NCBI GenBank assembly: GCA_031286065.1
Contig: JAITUZ010000035.1
Location: 1 to 64,000, forward strand
Length of the DNA stretch: 64,000 nucleotides
Origin: Candidatus Methanimicrococcus odontotermitis
GTDB lineage: Archaea > Halobacteriota > Methanosarcinia > Methanosarcinales > Methanosarcinaceae
Reading direction: 5' to 3'
Part shown: positions 35,151 to 57,019 of the stretch, one piece after another
Numbering within the stretch: the stretch's first letter is position 1
Layout of the letters: each line of letters starts with the position of its first letter
Notes under the pieces: generated by a model
What the model saw: only the letters and a program-made list of their open reading frames with translations
Told to the model about the DNA's origin: nothing
Databases searched by the model: none
Program-made: the position numbers and the translations under genes

Positions 35151-35747
35151 ATGAAATCTAAATTAATTCTTTGTCTTTTTGTGATATGCTTACTTTTGCT
35201 CTTCTCCGGATTTGCATCTGCATATAATTTGTACGATGACAACGGGAAAAAATATAAGTGGCATAGGTCTTATAACAATCCTGTCTGGGTGAATGCATCA
35301 AGTTATAATTCCAGTTGGCAATCTGTTGTTAATAATTCTATTAATAATATTACTTCCAGCGGAGCTAATTTTGGTTTTATTAATCAAAATGGTCGGATTG
35401 AAGTAATGATGGCAGCACACGCCCTCTATGCAGCTGGAAATGAAACTGGTGATCCATTAGGTCGAACTACATACTCATCGTACACTTATTACCCTTCAAA
35501 TCAAACATTTGTTTTGACAGCGTCAAAAATAGCAATAAATACAAATAAGCCTTGGCATACTTCTGGTAATTCGACTAAATCTTACAATTTACCCTGTACT
35601 ATTTCTCATGAACTTTGTCATGTTGCAGGTCTTCATCATCATAATGGAACTAATTCTGTAATGAGACCACTACTAACAATGGGAGAATATAGACCCTTTG
35701 GGTCAGATGATATAAATGGACTTACTGCAATTTATGGGAGGTATTAA
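35151..35747 (+). CDS. Secreted matrixin-type zinc metalloprotease
   Basis: A 198-residue exported protease of the metzincin clan. The signal peptide is residues 1-23 (MKSKLILCLFVICLLLLFSG onward, cleavage after FASA). The zinc-binding motif HELCHVAGLHH fits HExxHxxGxxH exactly, and a methionine nine residues later (NSVM) can form the Met-turn. The end GSDDINGLTAIYGRY is the usual matrixin closing helix. No propeptide with a cysteine switch is seen between signal and catalytic part. The start at 35151 has AGGAG 9 bases upstream. The gene is followed after 3 bases by a TIMP/NTR-like gene, so both are translated from one mRNA. AT-rich codons differ from those of neighbouring housekeeping genes. 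Confidence 0.82.
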   Translation: MKSKLILCLFVICLLLLFSGFASAYNLYDDNGKKYKWHRSYNNPVWVNASSYNSSWQSVVNNSINNITSSGANFGFINQNGRIEVMMAAHALYAAGNETGDPLGRTTYSSYTYYPSNQTFVLTASKIAINTNKPWHTSGNSTKSYNLPCTISHELCHVAGLHHHNGTNSVMRPLLTMGEYRPFGSDDINGLTAIYGRY

Positions 35748-35750
35748 TTT

Positions 35751-36401
35751 ATGAAAAATTTAAAATATTTCAGTTTGGGATTGTTTAGTATTTTATTTAT
35801 ATTGGGCATTATTACCATGCCTAATTTTATTTCTTCTTATTCAAATTCAATTGAATCTGTGGCTCCATATGATTTATTAATCCATAACCTGTACCCATAT
35901 CTTACATATGATGAATTAATGGAATGCAGTGATATAATAGTTTCAGGTCAAGTTGTTTCAATTTCTGAATCAAAATGGTCAACTCCGGATGGTAAACAGC
36001 CTGATGGTGTTATCATAACAGAAAAAGTCGATGAAAACGGAGAACCGTGTATTGATTTTCTAATTGATTTAAAAGAAAATGAATTTATTTATACAGATAT
36101 AATTTTTAAAGTCAATACCATCTATATGGGTGATTTGAAAGAAAATGAAATTGTTGTTCGATTTTTAACAGGAACTGTTGATAATTTGAGAATGTCTGAT
36201 GAATCTGGTTTAGATATTCAGAATTATAAGGAAGGAGGCAATTATTTATTTTTCCTCAGCAATCATAGGACATATGGTGGTGAAAAAATTCCAAATTGTT
36301 ATTCAATTAATACACCGAGAGGTGCTTTAATTAATACTAATCCCGAGAATTTTATTAATTTTGATGGAGAAAAATTTGATCCTAACGTTCTGTATAAATA
36401 A
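35751..36401 (+). CDS. Exported TIMP/NTR-like protein paired with the matrixin
   Basis: A 216-residue protein with an N-terminal membrane or signal segment (residues 5-25). The rest follows a pattern shared by seven proteins in this window: YDELMECSDIIVSGQVVSIS, a W-S/T-x-D/K-G turn, FIYTDIIFKVNTIYMGDLKE, an RFLTGTVD strand, and a final GGNYLFFLSN. This resembles the OB-fold of TIMP/netrin-like domains (SD-I-V-x-x-x-V, then a strand ending in K/M-G). GGGAGGT of its ribosome binding site lies inside the end of the protease gene. It is an obvious candidate partner or inhibitor of the protease; this is inference. Its closest relative in the window is the gene at 55714. Confidence 0.62.
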   Translation: MKNLKYFSLGLFSILFILGIITMPNFISSYSNSIESVAPYDLLIHNLYPYLTYDELMECSDIIVSGQVVSISESKWSTPDGKQPDGVIITEKVDENGEPCIDFLIDLKENEFIYTDIIFKVNTIYMGDLKENEIVVRFLTGTVDNLRMSDESGLDIQNYKEGGNYLFFLSNHRTYGGEKIPNCYSINTPRGALINTNPENFINFDGEKFDPNVLYK

Positions 36402-37662: not shown

Positions 37663-40506
37663 TCACCAATCGTCATCATCTGCCGGACTGTAGTCATCGC
37701 TCAGATATTCGCCGTCTTCTTCGGGCATGCAGCTTGTTTCCAGCGGCGTTTTGCCGGCCGCATCCGTTACATGTCTGTCGGCTCCCGCGTCAACCAGCTT
37801 TTGGACGTAATTATCTCCGTAGCGTCTCCGCTTTGTATTTTTGCTCGCGGAATGAAGGGCGGCATCCCCGTTTTTATTTTTAGCGTTAATGTCAACGCCC
37901 TTCTTTTTTAATTCGCTGAACATCTCTTCCAAATCAAAGGAGTCCGCAAAAGTCAGAAGTCCGTGATATAAAGTATCTCCGTCAGGATTTATATCAACCG
38001 GGGGAACGCCGCCGTAAAGCATGGATTGTATTGAAGATTCGCAGTTGAAATACAAGTCGCGGTCATCTTCATAATTCGGCGTGATACTGATAAGATATCC
38101 TAACGCGTTGTATCCGCCGTTGTCTTTATGCGCGGGGTCGATGCCGTAGTTTACCAGTTCTTTGAATACTTCGTCTCCGCCGTTATATGAAAGGCAGAAA
38201 TAAAATAACGGCGTCCGGCCGAATTTATCGGTGACATCGGCTTTTGCGCCCGCTTTGCGCAGCAAATCCAAAGCCTCTCTTATTAAATGCGGATAAGTTT
38301 GCTTGACAATACAATGCAAAGGCGTTTGCCCGTCTTCATCCGCCGTGTTCGGGTCAGCCTTTACTTTCAACAGTTTTTCAATTATTACCGGCTTGATTTG
38401 TTCTTCTTTGCAGGCGGCGAGTAGTTTCTTGTCTAATTCAGCCTGTTCTTCGGGCGTTTTGGCTTCATTGTACAAAGAAGGCAAGTCTTTGCAAACGTTT
38501 TTCATATATTCCCATTTCTCAAAACGGCTTTCAAATTCTGCCAATTTTTCGGCGGGCGTTTCCCCGTTATGGTCGATCTTGTCCTTTTTCTTCGGGTCTT
38601 TCATGACCTCTTTGAGCTGTTCCATGTGCGGCCGAACCAATTCGCTGTAATCGGCGATGAATTCAAGAGGCGTGCGTCCTTCATTGTCTGTATTTTGAAG
38701 CGGAACTTTGTATTCTTCTACCAGCCGCTTCACGTTTTTCAAAGACAAACACCTCAATGCGTCATGCAATGCTGTCGGGATTTTGTTCGGGTCGGCGCCT
38801 TTTTCCAGCAGCAGTTCAAAAGTGCTGTCATGATAATAAATTCCCCGGCTCAATATGCTGCTTCCGTTTCTGTCAACGGTTTCGTTGATGTCAAATCCTC
38901 TCGATTTGAAATGATTCATCATTTGAGGCAAATCAAGCGCAAACGCGGTCATAATAAGAGAAAAATCCGTAATGTCAACATCCGCGCCGCCGTTTATCAG
39001 CAGCATCACCATGTCATCCGTTTTTTTCATATAGTCTTTATCTTCTTTTTTGCCGGCATCTATCGTGTCAAAAAAGTAATCGATTGCGGTTCTGCCCTTG
39101 AAATTGTATTCGTTCAGAGGAATGCCGCCGTTTATCATTTTTCCAATCGCGCTGCCGTTCATGGCATCCAGTTCTTTGCAAAAAGCCTTGTATTCCGAAG
39201 CTTTAAATTTTTGAGATTTGGGCTTCTTCTTCTCTTCTTCTTCATCGTCGTCCTCTTCATCTTCTTCATCGTTTTCGTCTTCATCCTCCTCTTCATCTTC
39301 TTCATAATCGCCCTGTATTTCCTCAAACTCTTCAAAAGTCGGAATGTCGTCATCGGCGGTGATCAAATCAAGGAACGCTGCGCTGTTCGCGTCTAAACCC
39401 AGCGTGCTGAAAGAGTCCGCTAAGTCCCGAGCTGTCCATTCTGTTATGCTGCTGTTGTCATAGTATTCGACCAGTTCGCGCCCGCGCTTAACGGCGGCTT
39501 TAAAGAGCGCTTCTGTAAATCCGTCATCTTCAAGGGCGTCTTCCAATCCGATTTCCATTAAAAACATCAGTTCTTCCTGCAAATGTTGGTTGTCGCGCAT
39601 GGTCAATTGAGCGGCGATGAGTTCCATCACTCGCGGGTCATTTTTATCAAATCCGTATTTTTCAAACAAAGACGGAATGTGCATCACTTCACCGTAGCGG
39701 TCATAATACCAGCTCACGCTGTCTTCCAAATAATTACAGTAATCGATGTAGTTGCGCAAATATTTGACATCTTTCATCGCCAGCTGAAAAGCGGCTTCCG
39801 AACCGAACGGCGTTTCTTCATTTTTACCTTTAACGCCGTCTTCTTGATTCACTCGGTTCGTTTCTTCGATAAATTTGATGACCAAAGGCACTAAATCATC
39901 ATGTTTCAACGCTTCACGGTAAATGATGGCTTCATTTTGGTATGTTTCAATATCGTCCTCTTCGTATTCGGCGAATTGACCGTCTTCATCAATATAACCG
40001 TAGCTTATACCGTAATTATCGTTGACGGCATTGATAAATTCATCAAAGTTTTCGAGCTGCCATTCCAATAGTCTTTTTAAAGAATCATGGTCATTAGTGT
40101 CAACCGTGAATTCCATTGTTTCCAAATCGAATTCTTCACGTTCTCCGCTTTCATTTTTTAAAGCTCTCATCGCTTCTTTTCGGGCGTTTTTCAAAAGGAC
40201 GGTATCGGTGAAGCCCATCAGTTTGTAGCGAAGCAGTATGACAGATTCCAATTCGTCGACTGTCGGATGATCGGGATCTTCAAAAGTTTGTTCGGCGGCT
40301 AAATGAAATCCGTTTTTTTCTTGCTCTTTGGTCAATATTTCCAAATGTTTTTTCAATTCTTCCAATGAGCTGAACTGAATCTCTTCTTCGTTTTCATCGC
40401 CGCTTGCAATAATTTTCAAGTTCAGGCTTTCGTCATACTCGGCCATCCAAATTTCCGGACTGCCCCCTTGTTTGTGATAGGTTACTCGCGTTAACATAGT
40501 GATCAT
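37663..40506 (-). CDS. Large ankyrin-repeat protein with acidic linker
   Basis: A 947-residue protein without signal peptide, probably cytoplasmic. Residues 1-390 have no recognised domain (acidic, helical). About 395-435 is an extremely acidic linker of Asp/Glu followed by KKKPKSQK. From about 480 to 930 there are some eight or nine ankyrin units, for example EDGQTPLHCIVKQTYPHLI, KFGRTPLFYFCLSYNGGDEV, KNGDAALHSASKNTKRRRYG and AAGKTPLETSC. The repeats fit protein-protein binding; the partner is unknown. Such large ankyrin proteins are more usual in host-associated microbes. The gene is convergent with the lipoprotein gene. Confidence 0.78.
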   Translation of the reverse strand: MITMLTRVTYHKQGGSPEIWMAEYDESLNLKIIASGDENEEEIQFSSLEELKKHLEILTKEQEKNGFHLAAEQTFEDPDHPTVDELESVILLRYKLMGFTDTVLLKNARKEAMRALKNESGEREEFDLETMEFTVDTNDHDSLKRLLEWQLENFDEFINAVNDNYGISYGYIDEDGQFAEYEEDDIETYQNEAIIYREALKHDDLVPLVIKFIEETNRVNQEDGVKGKNEETPFGSEAAFQLAMKDVKYLRNYIDYCNYLEDSVSWYYDRYGEVMHIPSLFEKYGFDKNDPRVMELIAAQLTMRDNQHLQEELMFLMEIGLEDALEDDGFTEALFKAAVKRGRELVEYYDNSSITEWTARDLADSFSTLGLDANSAAFLDLITADDDIPTFEEFEEIQGDYEEDEEEDEDENDEEDEEDDDEEEEKKKPKSQKFKASEYKAFCKELDAMNGSAIGKMINGGIPLNEYNFKGRTAIDYFFDTIDAGKKEDKDYMKKTDDMVMLLINGGADVDITDFSLIMTAFALDLPQMMNHFKSRGFDINETVDRNGSSILSRGIYYHDSTFELLLEKGADPNKIPTALHDALRCLSLKNVKRLVEEYKVPLQNTDNEGRTPLEFIADYSELVRPHMEQLKEVMKDPKKKDKIDHNGETPAEKLAEFESRFEKWEYMKNVCKDLPSLYNEAKTPEEQAELDKKLLAACKEEQIKPVIIEKLLKVKADPNTADEDGQTPLHCIVKQTYPHLIREALDLLRKAGAKADVTDKFGRTPLFYFCLSYNGGDEVFKELVNYGIDPAHKDNGGYNALGYLISITPNYEDDRDLYFNCESSIQSMLYGGVPPVDINPDGDTLYHGLLTFADSFDLEEMFSELKKKGVDINAKNKNGDAALHSASKNTKRRRYGDNYVQKLVDAGADRHVTDAAGKTPLETSCMPEEDGEYLSDDYSPADDDDW

Positions 40507-40754
40507 ATATTGTTACATATCTCATATAAAATAAACGACTGATTATTCAATATACTGCTGTGTGCAAACCATGTCGTTTTCCAAAAATGTGAAAACTGAG
40601 ACTTCTGTTTTTTCGAAAAGTTAATTTTTTGGATGACGCAGATGATTTGAACACCTTTTCAAAAAAGTATTATTCAAAGAGAATTATATGGCTTTATTGA
40701 AGATAAAACCCCATCATAAATGAATATAGCATAAATTCTGCAGGAGTTTTGGTT

Positions 40755-41882
40755 ATGGATCAAATTAATAAAATTCTGATTGTGATCGTTCTTCTTGCGC
40801 TGATTATTTCGGCATCTGTTTTGGTTTGGAAAAACTCTCAATTTTGTTATGTTGAAAATGCCGTTCCTCCCGAAGAACAAATTGTTCAAAAAGAGGTTAT
40901 TGATACTTTAAATGTCACTTATTGGAACCCATGGGGCGGACCGACAGCAACCGGCGTAATACATAATGATTATCCGGCTTTTACATTGGCGGAATATGTC
41001 AAAGGATCAGATATCATCGTTTCAGCAACTGTTTCTTCAACGACTGAATGGAATGATTCGTCAAGCGCAGGGAAAGAAAAGTTAAAAGAACTCGGCTCTC
41101 CTTGGTTATATTCTTCAAATCGGGAATGTTATCTCATTGTCAATGATGTTCTGAAAGGAAATTATGACATCAATCGCGTTTATCTGAAAACGGATGTGAA
41201 AACGCCTGAGTTAAGAAGCGGTCAAGAATACATTTTATTTATTAACGGGTCAGTAAGCGGAAATTATGTACTCTGCACCGCTGAAGGCTATCTGATTCAA
41301 AACGGGTCGAATTATGAAGGCATGTACAATATTTCAATGCCGAAAGAAGATTTGGAATATTTAATTTCATTTACTGACAAAGAATTGGATTGGTATCACC
41401 GGATGGCGGCTTTTCCTCAAGTGTTTATCGGAGAAATGCTGACTACGACGAACGATGCCGATTTAATCCACTCGGGCGGTTTAGAATCGAAACAGCTGCA
41501 TCAAGTCCGCGTTATCAGCACGGTTAAAGGAAATTTATCAGACGTTGTTGATTTTATGTATGACGGAGCTTACATTACTGAGGAGATGTTTCAAACGTAC
41601 GCCGCTTCAGAAAATATGTCTCCCGTTCTCTCTAAGAGGTATGCTTTGACATGGCTTGAGTCAAACGGCACCGGATATTATCAGGAACATCATTGGGATC
41701 CTGAAATTTCGCCGCTGAAAGCGGGAGAGGTTTATTTAATCTGTCTTTGGGAAGATGGGGGTGTGTATCATATGGGCGCGTCTGTGACAGATTACAGAAT
41801 GAATGAACACAATAAACTCAAACTTCAGAAAACCGTAAAAGAGTATCAAGAGACATTAGGAAAAATTGAACAATATGTTTAA
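40755..41882 (+). CDS. Membrane-anchored protein with two TIMP/NTR-like domains
   Basis: A 375-residue protein with an N-terminal membrane helix (about 6-27: KILIVIVLLALIISASVLVW). Two halves resemble the NTR-like pattern: LAEYVKGSDIIVSATVSSTT with RECYLIVNDVLKGNYDINRV and SGQEYILFINGS, then PQVFIGEMLTTTND with HQVRVISTVKGNLSDVVDFM and AGEVYLICLWEDG. It shares the closing helix (VKEYQETLGKIEQ) with the lipoprotein at 36485. I start it at 40755, since AGGAG lies 8 bases before the ATG; a TTG 6 bases upstream is in frame. No protease gene is next to it. It begins a run of three paralogues on the plus strand. Confidence 0.6.
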   Translation: MDQINKILIVIVLLALIISASVLVWKNSQFCYVENAVPPEEQIVQKEVIDTLNVTYWNPWGGPTATGVIHNDYPAFTLAEYVKGSDIIVSATVSSTTEWNDSSSAGKEKLKELGSPWLYSSNRECYLIVNDVLKGNYDINRVYLKTDVKTPELRSGQEYILFINGSVSGNYVLCTAEGYLIQNGSNYEGMYNISMPKEDLEYLISFTDKELDWYHRMAAFPQVFIGEMLTTTNDADLIHSGGLESKQLHQVRVISTVKGNLSDVVDFMYDGAYITEEMFQTYAASENMSPVLSKRYALTWLESNGTGYYQEHHWDPEISPLKAGEVYLICLWEDGGVYHMGASVTDYRMNEHNKLKLQKTVKEYQETLGKIEQYV

Positions 41883-41983
41883 TGATTTGTATTGATTCTT
41901 CAATCCCCCGTTCATAACTTCAAAATCATTTGCAGTTAACCGAATTTATTTATAATTGCCTGTTTAATATCACCGAGATCAAT

Positions 41984-42574
41984 ATGTCTATAAAACAATC
42001 TCAGAAACTTGGTCTTGTATTGCTTCTCATTTCTGCCGTTATCATCGGTTCCGTCATTGGTTATGTTTATCTCCAATCGCAGACGCCCGATGACAAAAAT
42101 TTAGGCGAAATGATGATTAACTGGTACATTCCCGATTATGATACACTTGTTGCCGATTCCGATTTGATTGTCATTGCAACCGTGACGGACAAAACAGGAA
42201 TATGGGATACCGATGATGGTAAAAAGCCGTTGCTCCTGACGGATTCCGACACTATTCGGACGGAATACACTTTTAAGCCTGAAGACGTTTTGAAAGGCAG
42301 CACAACGACACTCATTGGCCGTGTCTACGGCGGTGAAGTTGACGGCTATACGCAGACAGCAATGCAGACACCTTCGTTTGAAGTCGGTGACAAAGTTCTC
42401 TTGTTCCTGAATAACAATGAAGACGCGGACGGAAACCGTATTCTGTGGTATCACATCAACTGGCCGGGCGCTTTTGCCGTAAACAGTAACGGTCAATTTG
42501 AGAATCCGTGCTACGGCGAAATTTCAATTGATCAGCTCACGCAGAACATTGCCGATTCCGAAACATCATCGTAA
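41984..42574 (+). CDS. Membrane-anchored TIMP/NTR-like protein
   Basis: A 196-residue protein: membrane helix at about 8-30, then one NTR-like domain. YDTLVADSDLIVIATVTDKT is followed by GIWDTDDGKKP, TEYTFKPEDVLKGSTTTLIG, RVYGGEVDGYTQ and FEVGDKVLLFLNNNEDADG. The start at 41984 has GAGATC upstream; an in-frame TTG at 41930 lacks a site. It is a recent tandem duplicate of the next gene, with long identical stretches at protein and DNA level (GIWDTDDGKKP, NEDADGNRILWY). Function is unknown; the domain would be outside the membrane. Confidence 0.6.
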   Translation: MSIKQSQKLGLVLLLISAVIIGSVIGYVYLQSQTPDDKNLGEMMINWYIPDYDTLVADSDLIVIATVTDKTGIWDTDDGKKPLLLTDSDTIRTEYTFKPEDVLKGSTTTLIGRVYGGEVDGYTQTAMQTPSFEVGDKVLLFLNNNEDADGNRILWYHINWPGAFAVNSNGQFENPCYGEISIDQLTQNIADSETSS

Positions 42575-42600
42575 AATATTATCAGGTCCTTTGGGCACTC

Positions 42601-43203
42601 ATGACGAAAGACTCCAAAGGAATGAAAATCGCGGTTCTTGTTTTCTCCGCCGCTTTGATTATTATCGCGGCGGCTGCAACTTTTACCGCCGCAGATCGGC
42701 AGAATCCGGCTTTTCCGGTAAACAGTAACATTGGCGGAATTTCTATCAGCTGGCATTATCCTGATTATGAAGAGTTGGTCACGGCGTTGGATTTAATTGT
42801 TATTGCAACCGTGACGAATAAAACAGGAATTTGGGATACCGATGACGGTAAAAAGCCGATGTTTTGGCCGATCCGGAAAAGCGGTATTTTAACGGAATAC
42901 ACTTTCAAACCGGAAGACGTTTTGAAAGGAAATACGACAACATTTATCGGCCGCATCCGCGGAGGCACTGCCGACGGTTATACGCAGGACGCGAACCCGA
43001 CACCGTCATTTGAAACCGGCGACAAAGTGCTTTTGTTCTTGAAAACAAATGAAGATGCGGACGGAAACCGTATTTTATGGTATTATCTTAGCTGGCCGAC
43101 TGCGTTTACCGAAAACCGTGACGGAAAATTTGAAAATCCGTGCTATGATGCGCTTTCAATTGAACTGCTGAAACAGGATGTCACCGCTCTGAACGCGGTC
43201 TAA
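42601..43203 (+). CDS. Membrane-anchored TIMP/NTR-like protein (tandem duplicate)
   Basis: A 200-residue paralogue of the preceding gene. Membrane helix at about 8-30 (KIAVLVFSAALIIIAAAATF), then YEELVTALDLIVIATVTNKT, GIWDTDDGKKP, TEYTFKPEDVLKGNTTTFIG, RIRGGTADGYTQ and FETGDKVLLFLKTNEDADG. The serine of the usual SDLIV is replaced by Leu (ALDLIV). It starts 26 bases after the stop of its twin, so both are probably co-transcribed. The ribosome binding site is weak. About 380 bases of T-rich and structured sequence follow before the next gene. Confidence 0.6.
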   Translation: MTKDSKGMKIAVLVFSAALIIIAAAATFTAADRQNPAFPVNSNIGGISISWHYPDYEELVTALDLIVIATVTNKTGIWDTDDGKKPMFWPIRKSGILTEYTFKPEDVLKGNTTTFIGRIRGGTADGYTQDANPTPSFETGDKVLLFLKTNEDADGNRILWYYLSWPTAFTENRDGKFENPCYDALSIELLKQDVTALNAV

Positions 43204-50104: not shown

Positions 50105-51538
50105 TTATTCATTCTCATCATCGAAAAAACGATCATAAACCGCCTGATATTCCGGCGCAAGACCGATTGCTTTCTTCATTTCAGCTTTTGAGTTTTCCGT
50201 CTCGTTCAACAGATATAAACATCCAGCTTTTAAATTATGGGCAAAAGCGGCAAGATCCGTCCGCTCTATTTCGCTTCCAATCATTTCATCTAAAATTTTT
50301 ATATATTCTTTCGATCTCGGATATCCTTCTTCGTCATCGGGATAATTTATGAAAATATGAATCTCATAAAGTTTCAAAATGAGATTTTCCGAATCGATTT
50401 TCAATCCTTCTTGAATATAATATTGCGCAGCCGGCATATTCGGATCGGTATTCAAAGCAGCGTACGCTTTTTTGGAATAATAGGCGCTGTCATTCTTATT
50501 TTCCGCCCAATCTTTATAATCCTCGACAAACGTTTTAATTTCTTCATCCGCCGTTTGCTCCGTGTCATACGCCAAAATCTTTTCGTGCCCTTCCTGCGTG
50601 ATATTTTCATACAGTCTGCCGAAAAACAGCCCGGATCTGAAGTCCGTATCCAAAAGTTTCAGTTGGTCAAAGAAAGTATCGACTTCACCGTTATAAAACA
50701 AATTCGGGAGATCTTCTAAAAGCCGTGTCATGTTTCTTTCGGCAGTTTCTTTGGGTTTTTGCCTCTTCTTCCAGTCGAAATAGAAGCTGTACCATTCTTT
50801 TATGATATTTCGGAGGAATTCATCTTCTTCCGGCTCATGCTCTGTTTTTTCTTCGGTTTCTTCTTCAAGTTCTCTGCCGGTCTCTTCAATATAATAATCC
50901 AGATAAAGCGATTCCAAAACTGCCATCACTTCGTCTCTTAAAAGAACAGGCTTCATTTTTTCAAGAAATTGCTTATCTTCGTCCGTTTTCAAATCCAAAA
51001 AGGCGTAGACGGCAATGTAATACAATTCTCCCATCGACTCAACATCTTCATTTACGGCGGCTAATTCTGTCAAACGGCTGAGAAGTCCTGTCAGGGATAT
51101 TTTTTTGGGGTCTTTCTCTTCGGCGGCAAAGTAACTCCAAACGGACGACCCGGCTTCACAGCACATTTTGTTCAGCGTTTTTTCTTCATCCTTTTCGGCG
51201 TCGTAAGAATAATCAAACCAATAACTTGTCGGCTTTTCATCTCTTGTACCGCCGGCAATCGGGTTATCATAAATGTACATTTCATCGGATTCCGGCAGAG
51301 CGTCAAAAAAATCTTTGTATTTTTCGTAATCCGGATGTTCGCTCGGGTCAAAAAGGCGGAAATATCCAGTTTTAATCAGAATATCAAAAACGCGGAGTTT
51401 TGTAAAACCGGTGTCCCACATATCATGGAAGTCATAAATATTGTAGATTAAATCGATTTTTTCACTGTTGTCAATATCGCTTTTATCGACAAGATGAACC
51501 ATCATTTCGGCAAAACTTTCCACATCATGCATTGACAT
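50105..51538 (-). CDS. Acidic TPR-like protein, unknown function
   Basis: A 477-residue, acidic, all-helical protein without signal peptide. The last 130 residues look like tetratricopeptide-type repeats: SAYYSKKAYAALNTDPNMPA, AAQYYIQEGLKIDSENLILK and LAAFAHNLKAGCLYLLNETE followed by NSKAEMKKAIGLAPEY. A strongly acidic stretch (about 225-245) lies in the middle. I do not recognise the N-terminal half. GGGAG precedes the ATG. It is upstream of the Fic-like gene on the same strand with a 126-base gap. Together with the ankyrin protein it adds to a set of large scaffold-like proteins in this region. Confidence 0.6.
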   Translation of the reverse strand: MSMHDVESFAEMMVHLVDKSDIDNSEKIDLIYNIYDFHDMWDTGFTKLRVFDILIKTGYFRLFDPSEHPDYEKYKDFFDALPESDEMYIYDNPIAGGTRDEKPTSYWFDYSYDAEKDEEKTLNKMCCEAGSSVWSYFAAEEKDPKKISLTGLLSRLTELAAVNEDVESMGELYYIAVYAFLDLKTDEDKQFLEKMKPVLLRDEVMAVLESLYLDYYIEETGRELEEETEEKTEHEPEEDEFLRNIIKEWYSFYFDWKKRQKPKETAERNMTRLLEDLPNLFYNGEVDTFFDQLKLLDTDFRSGLFFGRLYENITQEGHEKILAYDTEQTADEEIKTFVEDYKDWAENKNDSAYYSKKAYAALNTDPNMPAAQYYIQEGLKIDSENLILKLYEIHIFINYPDDEEGYPRSKEYIKILDEMIGSEIERTDLAAFAHNLKAGCLYLLNETENSKAEMKKAIGLAPEYQAVYDRFFDDENE

Positions 51539-52770: not shown

Positions 52771-53541
52771 TCATTCTTTTTTCATAATGCCGAGATGTGC
52801 CAAGCGTCGATTGATTTCTTCGGCCGCATGTGTTTCGGCGTCCGACTTCGTTTTTCCGCTTCCGCTGCCTGAGATGTCTGCCTTGAGTCCGGTGATGTTT
52901 TTTGGGAGTATGTATCCCATTATGAATGTCCGTTCGTGGGACGGTCCTGTTTCTGAAATCAAGAATGATTCCGGCCGGAATCCGATATAGTGTTTTTGAC
53001 AGAATTCGTACAATTTCACTTTTGGCGAAATCAGTGATTTGAGCGCCTTCTCCGCTTCTTTTTTGCCGATGATGAATTTGCAGATGAATTTTTTGGTCGG
53101 GCGAAGGCCGCCGTCCAAATAAATCGCGCCAACCACCGCTTCCAAGAAGGTTGAAGTCATTTTTTTAGATTTTTCCATGATACTTTTTTCAACAAACAAA
53201 TACTTATCCCATTCGTTTTTCTTTACGATGTCTTCGAGTTTTTCATCACAAACAAGATGAGATTTCAAATTTGTCAGTTGTCCTTGTTCAAGTTCTGCAT
53301 AATTCTTGAACACAAATTCTGAAACGATAAAGTCTAAAACCGCGTCTCCGAAAAAAGCGGTCCTTTTGTTTAAAGCCTGGATCCGCGCCTCTTGCAGCAA
53401 TGATAAATTGTCGAAAGAGTAGCCGATTTCCGCTTCAAATCGTTTCAGAACTTCCAGAGAATAACGTCTTTTCATATCCTCATCTTTATCCGTTGGTTGA
53501 AAATTCAGTTGAATTAACGTTTTTCTGTTTTCATCTTTCAT
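52771..53541 (-). CDS. RNase III-like protein with degenerate catalytic site and dsRNA-binding domain
   Basis: A 256-residue protein with RNase III architecture: endonuclease domain (about 30-150) and double-stranded RNA-binding domain (about 170-250). The fold signature is plain (FFGDAVLDFIVSEFVFKNY, EAVVGAIYLDGG). But of the acidic residues that bind metal and cut RNA, several are replaced: usual NERLEFLGD is NKRTAFFGD (two Glu lost, Lys59 and Ala62), SEGEL is EQGQL (Gln86), and the usual Asp before EA is Thr131. Asp66 and Glu134 remain. It likely binds dsRNA without normal cleavage, comparable to mitoribosomal RNase III-like proteins. GAGGTGA precedes the ATG. RNase III is uncommon in archaea. 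The leader contains a tandem repeat array. Confidence 0.85.
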   Translation of the reverse strand: MKDENRKTLIQLNFQPTDKDEDMKRRYSLEVLKRFEAEIGYSFDNLSLLQEARIQALNKRTAFFGDAVLDFIVSEFVFKNYAELEQGQLTNLKSHLVCDEKLEDIVKKNEWDKYLFVEKSIMEKSKKMTSTFLEAVVGAIYLDGGLRPTKKFICKFIIGKKEAEKALKSLISPKVKLYEFCQKHYIGFRPESFLISETGPSHERTFIMGYILPKNITGLKADISGSGSGKTKSDAETHAAEEINRRLAHLGIMKKE

Positions 53542-53954: not shown

Positions 53955-54330
53955 AATTCGTTTTCATGTTTTCCGTTTTTATAATAAAGACTCGAATGAA
54001 TATATACTCCATTTCCGCGCCTGTTTCTTTTATAATCCGAAACATTTCGGAAATGATTTCTATTTACAAACAAATCCTTACAACTATTCATATAATTATA
54101 TACTTTTTATACTTTATTATGACTGCAAACACATCTGAACTTCCCTCTTCTTCCTGTTTTTTATTTTTCATTCATTTTTCTCCTGTAAAACACCGGCTCT
54201 CTCGCTCTTGTTTTCTATGTATCCTTTTTTTGAATGGAATATTTTTTAGTTTCAGACAAATATATATTCAATTCAGTGAATGTATCTCTGATTTTACATA
54301 TTTTGTCATTTACGTTTGAAAGGAATCATC

Positions 54331-55035
54331 ATGCACGACTTTCTCTACCGGATTTATGATATGGTTCTTGAACGGCTCAGATACGCTGAGACCAAGAACA
54401 CGATTATTTTGACGCTTTTGGGCGTTTTGATTATCGGTGCTTTCCGCATTTTTAATGAAACGCCGGACCGCCCTTTGATTGCGACAATTTATTTTTGGTG
54501 TTTTCTGTTCTTTTCTGTGCTGGCCATCGTGACGGCTTTAACGTCTTTTATGCCGAATATCAAGCTTCAATATTTATACAAAACAAAAGACCCGCTTCCT
54601 TCCGACAGTTTGATCTATTACGAACATATCGCGAAATTCGACGAAGCAAAACAATATGTTTCGGCAATTAATCGCGTCTATTATAACGATGAAGCGGCCG
54701 CGGGAAATCTGGATTATGATTTGGCGGCCCAGATCATTCTCAATTCACGGTCGATTTACAGAAAATCCGTTCTTTCCTATTACGCGATCGTTTTTACGGT
54801 CTGCGCGATTTTGACGCCGATAATCGGCGGCCTTTATTTGGTGATCTCTCACTATTTCTACTGGAGCGACAAAGACGGGCGAACAAAAATCAAATTCGGC
54901 AGACGTAAAGTCGCCCGGGAAGAAATTAAGGAGATCCGCAACAGCCCGTTCCAGGATTTCAGCAAATATTTCCTTCCGCATCTGCCCAAAAAAGGTCTTC
55001 GAAAAATCAAGCCGGAAAAACCGAAGAAAGAATGA
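54331..55035 (+). CDS. Pycsar-effector-like two-helix membrane protein
   Basis: A 234-residue membrane protein resembling the PycTM effector family. RIYDMVLERLRYAETKNTII and a first membrane pair (about 24-45 and 55-75) are followed by a soluble part with YYEHIAKFDEAKQYVSAINR, then DLAAQIILNSRSIYRKSVLS and another membrane segment (about 150-170). The AETKN start and the final N-S-x-x-x-x-K block are hallmarks of Pycsar effectors, which respond to cyclic CMP or UMP in anti-phage defence by damaging the membrane. The basic C-terminal tail (about 185-234) is additional. No nucleotide cyclase gene lies nearby, so it is an orphan here. I start at the ATG at 54331 with GAAAGGA upstream. Confidence 0.62.
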   Translation: MHDFLYRIYDMVLERLRYAETKNTIILTLLGVLIIGAFRIFNETPDRPLIATIYFWCFLFFSVLAIVTALTSFMPNIKLQYLYKTKDPLPSDSLIYYEHIAKFDEAKQYVSAINRVYYNDEAAAGNLDYDLAAQIILNSRSIYRKSVLSYYAIVFTVCAILTPIIGGLYLVISHYFYWSDKDGRTKIKFGRRKVAREEIKEIRNSPFQDFSKYFLPHLPKKGLRKIKPEKPKKE

Positions 55036-55107: not shown

Positions 55108-55121
55108 CATCTATATATATT
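55108..55121 (+). promoter_or_regulatory. TATA box of the second protease cassette, leaderless start
   Basis: CTATATATATTATT is centred about 26 bases before the ATG at 55141, and no ribosome binding site is present. Transcription should begin within a few bases of the start codon. Confidence 0.5.
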
Positions 55122-55140
55122 ATTAAATTTATTAGAAATT

Positions 55141-55707
55141 ATGAAAAACGTGAAATTCAAAATTTTAATATTTTGTTTAATAGTTTGCTTTATTCTTTTT
55201 TTTATAAATCCATCACTTGGGGCCAATCCCGGTAAAGATAAATGGTTTTCGCAGCACATTCCCGTTGAAGTTGCATATACGACATTACCCTCGGATTGGC
55301 GTACTTCAACTCAAAATGCGATGAATACATGGAGCAATGCCGGTGCAAATTTCGGTTTTAAAACATATGCAGGTTCCTATTACTATGTTAATGTTATTCG
55401 ATCACAGGTGAGTGACCCAAATACACTTGCATATGAATCCGGAACAACTGGTATTTTATATTCTGGGGGAAAACTTCAGAAAACAGGTTCTATTATTCGC
55501 ATAAATACCAATATCTCGTGGAGTACCAATAATTCTTCAAGAACGCATGATGTTGAAAGTGTCATCCTTCATGAGTTGGGTCATTCTCTTTGTTTAGGTC
55601 ATGTTAATTCAACTACACCGGTTATGTATGGAGAACTTGGTCAAAATCAACTAAAAAGAACGTTAACTCAAGATGATAAAAATGGAGTTAAACAAATATA
55701 TGGGTGA
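55141..55707 (+). CDS. Secreted matrixin-type metalloprotease with altered zinc motif
   Basis: A 188-residue exported metzincin. Signal peptide about 1-28 (cleavage near SLGA). The catalytic motif is HELGHSLCLGH: all three zinc histidines and the glutamate are kept, but the glycine that allows the turn between the second and third His is Cys. TTPVMYGEL gives the Met-turn, and LTQDDKNGVKQIYG is the usual matrixin end. The middle reads NTWSNAGANFGFKTYAG (actually NTWSNAGANFGF, as in the related gene at 35151: SGANFGF). A single-gene promoter with TATA box precedes it. A TIMP/NTR-like gene starts 6 bases after its stop. Confidence 0.8.
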   Translation: MKNVKFKILIFCLIVCFILFFINPSLGANPGKDKWFSQHIPVEVAYTTLPSDWRTSTQNAMNTWSNAGANFGFKTYAGSYYYVNVIRSQVSDPNTLAYESGTTGILYSGGKLQKTGSIIRINTNISWSTNNSSRTHDVESVILHELGHSLCLGHVNSTTPVMYGELGQNQLKRTLTQDDKNGVKQIYG

Positions 55708-55713
55708 TTGTTT

Positions 55714-56358
55714 ATGAAGAAACTATTTTCAATTTGTTTGCTTTGTTTATTTTTTATTGGGACCTTTTTAACTGTCAATGCATTGTCATCATATGAAAAA
55801 TTCATTCCTGATTCTTTTACTTATGACATAAACGTAACTTATCCATTTTATTCGTATGGTGAGTTATATAATATCAGCGATGTTGTTGTTTCTGGAACTG
55901 TAATCTCTATTGGTGATGCTTCTTGGAGTACTAAAGATTCGAACGCTCCCAATGGCATTGTTTTCATTGAAGGAACTGATGAAAATGGACCATATATTGA
56001 ATATTCCATTAATTTATCTCCAAATGAAGTTATATATACTGATTTTGTATTTTATGCAGATGATGTTTATAAAGGTAACTTAAAGGAAAATGAATTGATT
56101 GTTCGCTCATTTGGGGGGACAGTCGATGGATTTACAATGAAATTTGATAGTAGTCTTGATTCAAGTAATTATCAAAAAGGAGATCAAATTTTATTATTTT
56201 TGATGGAAGATATCGGCATTACTAAAGACCTAGGTTCAAAACATTATACTATTGTAACACCCAGGGGCCAATTAATCTCTGAAAATGGTATTTTCATTAA
56301 TGAAAACGGTGAAAAGCTTAGTATAAATGATTTAATTCCTGCACAATTAAATGGTTAA
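55714..56358 (+). CDS. Exported TIMP/NTR-like protein paired with the second matrixin
   Basis: A 214-residue protein with a signal peptide (about 1-24). The domain follows as YGELYNISDVVVSGTVISIG, DASWSTKDSNAPNGIVF, VIYTDFVFYADDVYKGNLKE, RSFGGTVDGFTM and YQKGDQILLFLMEDIG, ending HYTIVTPRGQLISENGIF. It is the closest relative of the gene at 35751, which has the same position after the other matrixin. The ribosome binding site GGTGA overlaps the end of the protease gene. The start is the ATG at 55714; a TTG two codons upstream is less likely. Co-expression with the protease is almost certain. An inhibitory or chaperone role is inference. Confidence 0.62.
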   Translation: MKKLFSICLLCLFFIGTFLTVNALSSYEKFIPDSFTYDINVTYPFYSYGELYNISDVVVSGTVISIGDASWSTKDSNAPNGIVFIEGTDENGPYIEYSINLSPNEVIYTDFVFYADDVYKGNLKENELIVRSFGGTVDGFTMKFDSSLDSSNYQKGDQILLFLMEDIGITKDLGSKHYTIVTPRGQLISENGIFINENGEKLSINDLIPAQLNG

Positions 56359-56392
56359 TTTATTTTACCCATCCCATTTTTGAGGTGAATTA

Positions 56393-57019
56393 ATGATTCA
56401 TTCCGGAAGTTTTTGTATTTCTCTTATTCTTCTTCTCTTTTTTATTTGTATTCAGCCTTCCGTCGCTGATAGCAATTTCAATGAGTCTCTCTTTTATAGT
56501 GATACTCTTACCGAGTTCCATACTGCCGGACCTGCTAACATTCCTCGGGATGGAACAATATGGTATAAAAAATCAATGAACGACTCTCAAATCAGCTATA
56601 ATTATGAGACTTTGGTATCTGAATCTGATCTCATTTTTTATGGGACGGTCAAAACAATCAAATCTTCAAAATGGTCTTCAAAAAATGGGAAAACCCCCTT
56701 TTTATTATATTTTAAATATCCTTTTCAATCTGTATATACAGATGAAAATGGATGTGAATATTATTACAAATCCGTCTCTATGGCCGGAATGAATGCTTAT
56801 ATCTCCACTGATGTCGTATTTGAGGTTGATGAATGGGTTAAAGGCGGTCAAACGGATGAAGTCATCATTACAGTTGAAAGCGGCCAAGTCGGTAAATTCA
56901 TTATGCCTGGAGGATACGCTAATATATGGGATTTTGAAACGAATCAAAAATTCTTGGTTTTTTCAAAGGAACAAAATGGTCGTAATGAGATTATGACTCC
57001 CGGGCTTTTTTACGTATGA
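56393..57019 (+). CDS. Exported TIMP/NTR-like protein, third gene of the cassette
   Basis: A 208-residue protein with a signal peptide (about 1-25, cleavage near SVAD). The domain contains YETLVSESDLIFYGTVKTIK, SSKWSSKNGKTP, ISTDVVFEVDEWVKGGQTDE, VESGQVGKFIMPGG and FETNQKFLVFSKEQNGR. It has an insertion with tyrosines (VYTDENGCEYYYKS) between the two conserved strands. GAGGTGA lies 5 bases before the ATG, 34 bases after the preceding stop. In the first locus the matching place is taken by the two-domain lipoprotein at 36485, so both loci have protease, TIMP-like, TIMP-like order. Confidence 0.6.
   Translation: MIHSGSFCISLILLLFFICIQPSVADSNFNESLFYSDTLTEFHTAGPANIPRDGTIWYKKSMNDSQISYNYETLVSESDLIFYGTVKTIKSSKWSSKNGKTPFLLYFKYPFQSVYTDENGCEYYYKSVSMAGMNAYISTDVVFEVDEWVKGGQTDEVIITVESGQVGKFIMPGGYANIWDFETNQKFLVFSKEQNGRNEIMTPGLFYV

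Follow-up and report, generated by a model that had tools for sequence, protein, structure and literature searches.

A clade of secreted archaeal matrixins is genetically tied to a protein family with a predicted NTR/TIMP-like fold

The closest described counterpart of the system reported here is the animal MMP-TIMP pair, in which a matrix metalloprotease (MMP; catalytic family PF00413) with a cysteine-switch propeptide is matched by an exported inhibitor (TIMP; PF00965), whose N-domain shows the NTR/TIMP fold, is held by disulfides and chelates zinc through its N-terminal Cys1. Agrin NtA (PF03146) is also a TIMP-fold domain; it lacks the inhibitory N-terminus, binds laminin and has no protease encoded alongside. 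The disulfide-bonded NTR domains of PCOLCE, complement C3/C4/C5 and meteorin are protein-binding modules of animals, with no matrixin gene adjoining. For karilysin, a short prokaryotic matrixin, we know of no NTR-fold partner. TIMPs arose in eumetazoans according to a 2023 study (PMC10755359), and MMPs are held to be exchanged among bacteria, archaea and animals; the 2025 study of these transfers discusses MMPs of the Methanosarcinaceae in a text without TIMP or operons (PMC12587646). Here we report on a window of 64,000 nucleotides from Candidatus Methanimicrococcus odontotermitis, a member of the same archaeal family (contig JAITUZ010000035.1, positions 1 to 64,000; this is contig C12 of the draft assembly, which spans 1.75 Mb at about 79% completeness). 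In this window a gene for a secreted matrixin (P0001, 55141..55707, + strand) is followed by genes for two exported proteins, PT1 (P0002, 55714..56358, +) and the more divergent PT2 (P0003, 56393..57019, +), which belong to a family that we call PT. Our analysis shows that the matrixin-PT pair is real and conserved. As far as searched, it is undescribed in the open-access literature, where we found no prior description of a prokaryotic TIMP/NTR partner of matrixins.

P0001 (188 residues) is clearly a matrixin. It carries the zinc motif HELGHSLCLGH (family pattern HExxHxxGxxH) and the Met-turn VMY, and it scores 57.4 bits against PF00413 (curated cut-off 24). Together with a signal peptide seen by eye this bears out an earlier note on the same DNA, made from the letters alone, which had described a signal-peptide metalloprotease. 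The sequence resembles MMP structures, karilysin being among the matches (E 0.0044), and P0001 shares the short M10 catalytic domain of karilysin-type enzymes as well as its M10 class with the Methanosarcinaceae MMPs of PMC12587646. The cysteine-switch propeptide of animal-type MMPs was not found in P0001. From the likely signal-peptide cleavage site it is only about 8 residues, none of them Cys, to the Trp that opens the conserved part of the catalytic domain. The same architecture recurs in the paired archaeal matrixins, where the signal peptide leads directly into the catalytic domain and leaves no room for a propeptide. Unlike karilysin-type matrixins, many PT-paired enzymes have Asp instead of His as the third zinc ligand (HEFGHWLxLxD; L097, L108, L055, L041, L059, L114 and L132).

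The genetic linkage of the two families is real. In the host genome a PT gene lies directly downstream of all five matrixins of the P0001 clade (C12 at 55 kb, C12 at 35 kb, C49, C50 and C14). In a survey of 237 genomes of the class, a PT gene lies directly downstream on the same strand at 27 of 31 clade matrixins (profile A4, at least 90 bits), and at 2 more of these places PT stands upstream within one open reading frame (ORF). As the A4 profile derives from paired matrixins, this proportion speaks of one matrixin clade and not of matrixins generally; a widespread Methanosarcinaceae matrixin of ~240 residues occurs in genomes holding no PT. By chance only 0.0003-0.002 PT neighbors per matrixin are expected in this survey, and chance adjacency is rejected. 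Scanning of a wider genome collection revealed pairs in Methanosarcina (two in one genome, L097), Methanohalophilus and Methanomethylovorans, and further ones in Hydrothermarchaeota (L108), Methanoperedens (L111) and a Chloroflexota bacterium (L114). Among 298 Anaerolineae genomes, 14 of 20 PT matches adjoin a matrixin or share one ORF with it, counting two genomes with nearly identical copies (G472 and G492). The genome survey that the earlier note had proposed thus shows the two families pairing and fusing across archaea and bacteria, and the finding extends beyond the note's coordinates 55141-57019, as the window itself holds a second pair (35151-36401) and more PT copies (41930-43203).

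Natural fusions point the same way. Matrixin and PT, in this order, form single ORFs in three genomes of the same genus (L049, 393 residues; L054, 426 residues; L056, 380 residues), and no second signal peptide is visible in these proteins. The reverse order, PT before matrixin, is found in the longer proteins L116, L117, L118 and L139. That the two are found fused in either order speaks for direct contact between matrixin and PT. It also bears on the idea of PT as a chaperone (foldase) for secretion or folding, which would stand in for the missing propeptide and then leave or be degraded. The lack of a propeptide in the paired archaeal matrixins, the tight spacing of the PT gene directly 3' of the protease gene and the prodomain position of PT in the PT-first fusions are all in line with such a role. 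The matrixin-first fusions, however, place PT on the opposite side, PT often occurs where no such protease is present, and short matrixins of the karilysin kind reach their fold with a minimal propeptide; we regard a chaperone as unlikely.

PT1 and PT2 are homologous (BLASTP 35% identity over 104 residues, E 6e-10). The earlier note had assigned a common pattern to these two exported proteins; the relationship stands, whereas the motifs it quoted are only approximate. W-S-T-K reads WSSK in PT2, TDVVFEV and TDFVFYA resemble each other only loosely at the T-D-V-F pattern, GGTVDG of PT1 corresponds to SGQVGK in PT2, and the final F-x-x-G motif appears as YQKGDQILLFL in PT1 and as FETNQKFLVFS in PT2. 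Neither protein has a significant match in Pfam or NCBIfam, and PT profiles run against PDB sequences likewise yielded nothing significant. The TIMP profile PF00965 found nothing in the genome at E<=1, nor did an hmmscan of PT members return it. The agrin NtA profile PF03146 gave weak matches to 1/16 and 2/29 PT members (E 0.034-0.045), which are below significance and were not used as proof.

The fold of PT was predicted with AlphaFold2 from a 29-sequence alignment (mean predicted local distance difference test, pLDDT, 86.6; predicted template modeling score, pTM, 0.81). Foldseek ranked agrin NtA as the best match of this model (E 4.6e-3, probability 1.00); TIMP-2 and TIMP-1 reached a probability of 0.99. 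In VIA-align comparisons the model reached Z 11.0 with NtA, 10.6 with N-TIMP-1 (root-mean-square deviation 3.1, 117/119 residues) and 10.2 with N-TIMP-3, while the NTR domain of PCOLCE scored 8.1 and generic OB folds stayed below 7 (e.g. PriB 6.8). Because the NtA and N-TIMP values of 10-11 far exceed those of generic OB folds, the structure comparison, another check proposed by the earlier note, supports at the fold level its guess of a TIMP/NTR OB fold from strand order alone: the predicted PT barrel is NTR/TIMP-like over the whole domain. A common fold of PT and TIMP does not establish a common function.

By the TIMP family's own criteria PT is not a TIMP, despite its predicted TIMP/NTR-like fold. 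In the structural alignment residue 1 of TIMP falls on Val41 of P0002, which lies within the chain and is preceded by about 16 mature residues, and mature P0002 contains 0 Cys, so the disulfides of the TIMP N-domain are missing. With an internal residue 1 position and no Cys in the mature protein, a zinc-chelating N-terminus as in TIMP is impossible, and the earlier note had correctly remarked that this Cys is absent. Several near-invariant PT residues cluster in a W-x-T-x-D-G loop that follows strand A (W47, D51 and G52 of the model), at the region of the TIMP A-B loop, and in the model this loop is the best candidate for a matrixin contact.

These findings speak directly to the possibility that PT is a true TIMP, gained from animals along with an animal-type MMP. 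The match of the PT model to the TIMP N-domain fold along its full length would suit such an origin, and MMP transfers between animals and microbes have been reported (PMC12587646). A protein without Cys and disulfides, with about 10% identity to TIMP in the structural alignment, without a PF00965 match in the genome and with a wide distribution over deep archaeal and bacterial lineages could by no means be easily derived from an animal TIMP, and we consider this scenario very improbable. What the system shares with the animal pair is the catalytic family of the protease, a partner with a predicted NTR/TIMP N-domain fold over the whole N-domain, and export of both proteins. In contrast to the animal pair, the genes here adjoin or fuse, PT has neither Cys1 warhead nor disulfides nor a PF00965 match, the matrixin has no cysteine-switch propeptide, and inhibition by PT is putative. 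A TIMP-fold protein tied genetically to matrixins in archaea and bacteria would represent either convergent use of one fold for the same protease or a deeper origin of the pair. Since matrixins reportedly moved between bacteria, archaea and animals, the linked pair could be kin of the ancestor of MMP and TIMP; that prokaryotes hold their own matrixin/NTR-fold inhibitor system of such descent, with the Cys1 warhead as a later animal invention, is a speculation to which we assign a low probability.

Given even odds by us is the reading that PT binds the secreted matrixin, which lacks a propeptide, and controls it, with an inhibitor or a trans-acting prodomain as the likeliest form. Of the roles that the earlier note had listed for the small proteins, namely inhibitor, chaperone or anchor, we favor the first, or control more broadly. 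The two proteins would then form a two-part secreted module, made from one operon, with both partners exported and co-inherited, in which the matrixin is produced without a propeptide and a separate PT, restraining or maturing the protease, would fill this gap. PT would bind the matrixin outside the cell and hold it in check, and proteolysis at the cell surface would be held back until PT is displaced or degraded. Contact would possibly be made through the W-x-T-x-D-G loop, the Cys1 wedge of TIMP being impossible here. Our analysis shows the gene linkage, the natural fusions, the lack of room for a propeptide and the predicted PT fold; that PT physically binds the matrixin, at which site, and that it inhibits are what we infer. 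If the control role is true, microbes may possess a regulated protease-inhibitor pair of their own, and PT could serve as a scaffold for cysteine-free metalloprotease inhibitors. In any case this offers a function hypothesis for a family without a significant Pfam match that is present in 11 copies in one small genome.

Several observations weigh against control by PT. The TIMP warhead (Cys1/alpha-amine) is absent from P0002, the best fold match, agrin NtA, is to our knowledge not an inhibitor, and the PT-first fusion L139 already bears FTP and PepSY propeptide motifs. In favor of the module, matrixin and PT distances correlate in a mirror-tree of 22 pairs (r 0.83, Mantel p 1e-4), as co-inherited genes would be expected to give; linked genes, however, are expected to be co-inherited even without contact. 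A pseudo-complex, modeled as a read-through of matrixin and PT with the TGA taken as Trp purely as a modeling device, yielded no matrixin-PT interface; at pLDDT 69.8 and pTM 0.51, and with the matrixin half poorly modeled on six rows, it speaks neither for nor against one. Furthermore, PT outnumbers the paired matrixin: of about 85 places where PT scores above 100 bits, about 28 lie beside a matrixin. Intact PT genes also adjoin matrixins that are broken by stop codons or fragmentary (L122, L124 and G164:C2:2206332-2206778), so PT outlives the protease. From both its abundance and its survival beside broken matrixins it follows that PT has some role without a paired matrixin.

The excess of solitary PT genes, the intact copies beside pseudogenes and the missing interface in the pseudo-complex would all be compatible with no direct contact, PT being a surface protein in its own right, or else a matrixin substrate, that is co-regulated and co-transferred with the protease. 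Without joint action it would be difficult to account for the recurrent fusions, which occur in either order, and for a pairing that spans archaea and bacteria, and we think the no-contact reading quite unlikely. A serious rival to inhibition, possible though in our view not probable, is that PT is a surface anchor or a targeting (exosite) subunit, which would tether the matrixin to the S-layer or bring it substrate without inhibiting it, given that PT also occurs without the protease. The best structural match, NtA, and the lower-scoring NTR domain of PCOLCE are binding modules (the NTR domains of PCOLCE, the complement proteins and meteorin share the superfamily fold with PT at Z 7-8), PT is found alone and fused to other domains, some PT proteins end in a PGF-CTERM-like sorting tail (L111:7055-7714; that of L040 seen by eye), and either fusion order would be natural for a targeting domain. 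On the other hand, no C-terminal anchor is visible on the paired PTs of this operon, and a separate targeting subunit would still need to bind the protease tightly.

The layout of the locus fits a joint unit. Gene order and spacing at 55141-57019 agree with the earlier note: 6 bases separate the matrixin from the PT1 ATG (55714) and 34 bases separate PT1 from PT2 (56393). All three proteins have signal-peptide-like N-terminal segments by eye. A ribosome-binding site of the GGTGA type for PT1 (55704..55708, +) overlaps the matrixin stop codon, and a TATA-like stretch, tctatatatatta (55110..55122, +), precedes the matrixin ATG by about 20-30 bases; both were read from the sequence. Because of these two signals the three genes likely form one operon with translational coupling, for which the TATA-like stretch is a possible promoter with a leaderless start. 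Readthrough as a natural link between matrixin and PT1 was set aside, as PT1 is equipped with a start codon, a ribosome site and a signal peptide of its own.

For the PT family at large, scanning of the genome contigs with P0002 alone gave nothing and alignment A1 was too diverse; the matches were obtained with alignment A2. PT2 scores 120 bits with the PT profile. In the second pair of the window, a clade matrixin (HELCHVAGLHH; 35151..35747, +) is followed after 3 bases by a PT gene (35751..36401, +) whose product is 43% identical to P0002 (E 1.8e-43). Two PT copies without an adjoining matrixin lie at 41930..42574 (+, 125 bits) and 42601..43203 (+, 124 bits), next to a distant PT-like protein of 377 residues (40749..41882, +, 55 bits). 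Relatives 40-60% identical to the central family sequence occur in Methanosarcina, Methanococcoides, Methanohalophilus and Methanolobus, which points to a host within the Methanosarcinaceae. One Methanosarcina-like PT gene sits on a contig catalogued under a Bacteroidales bacterium (UBA1797; L109), probably through a binning error. N-terminal extensions are present on six PT proteins (L039, L043, L048, L094, L100 and L102), in the first four as a common domain of ~130 residues with a weak Wzt_C-like Pfam match. By eye, some solo PTs seemed to start with a BsuPI-like protease-inhibitor domain; this identity was dropped, as Pfam gave the weak Wzt_C-like match only.

Contig C50 of the host genome carries a cluster of four divergent matrixin-like genes (L030, 3893-12539, - strand), none of them with a PT beside it. 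Three of the four have Glu as the third ligand (HELGHALGxNE), and judged by this motif their products may be inactive or altered. In the window, the gene immediately 5' of the matrixin (54316-55035, +) has a match to PycTM (PF18967, 35 bits), the transmembrane domain of Pycsar effectors. Further upstream, an RNase III with a dsRNA-binding domain (52771-53541, -; PF14622 78 bits, PF00035 39 bits) shows a bacterial-looking arrangement in an archaeal genome. The window also encodes an acidic protein of 477 residues without annotation (50105-51538, -), a large ankyrin-repeat-like protein of 947 residues, recognized by eye (37663-40506, -), and an open frame of 575 residues, which we take to be methyl-coenzyme M reductase alpha.
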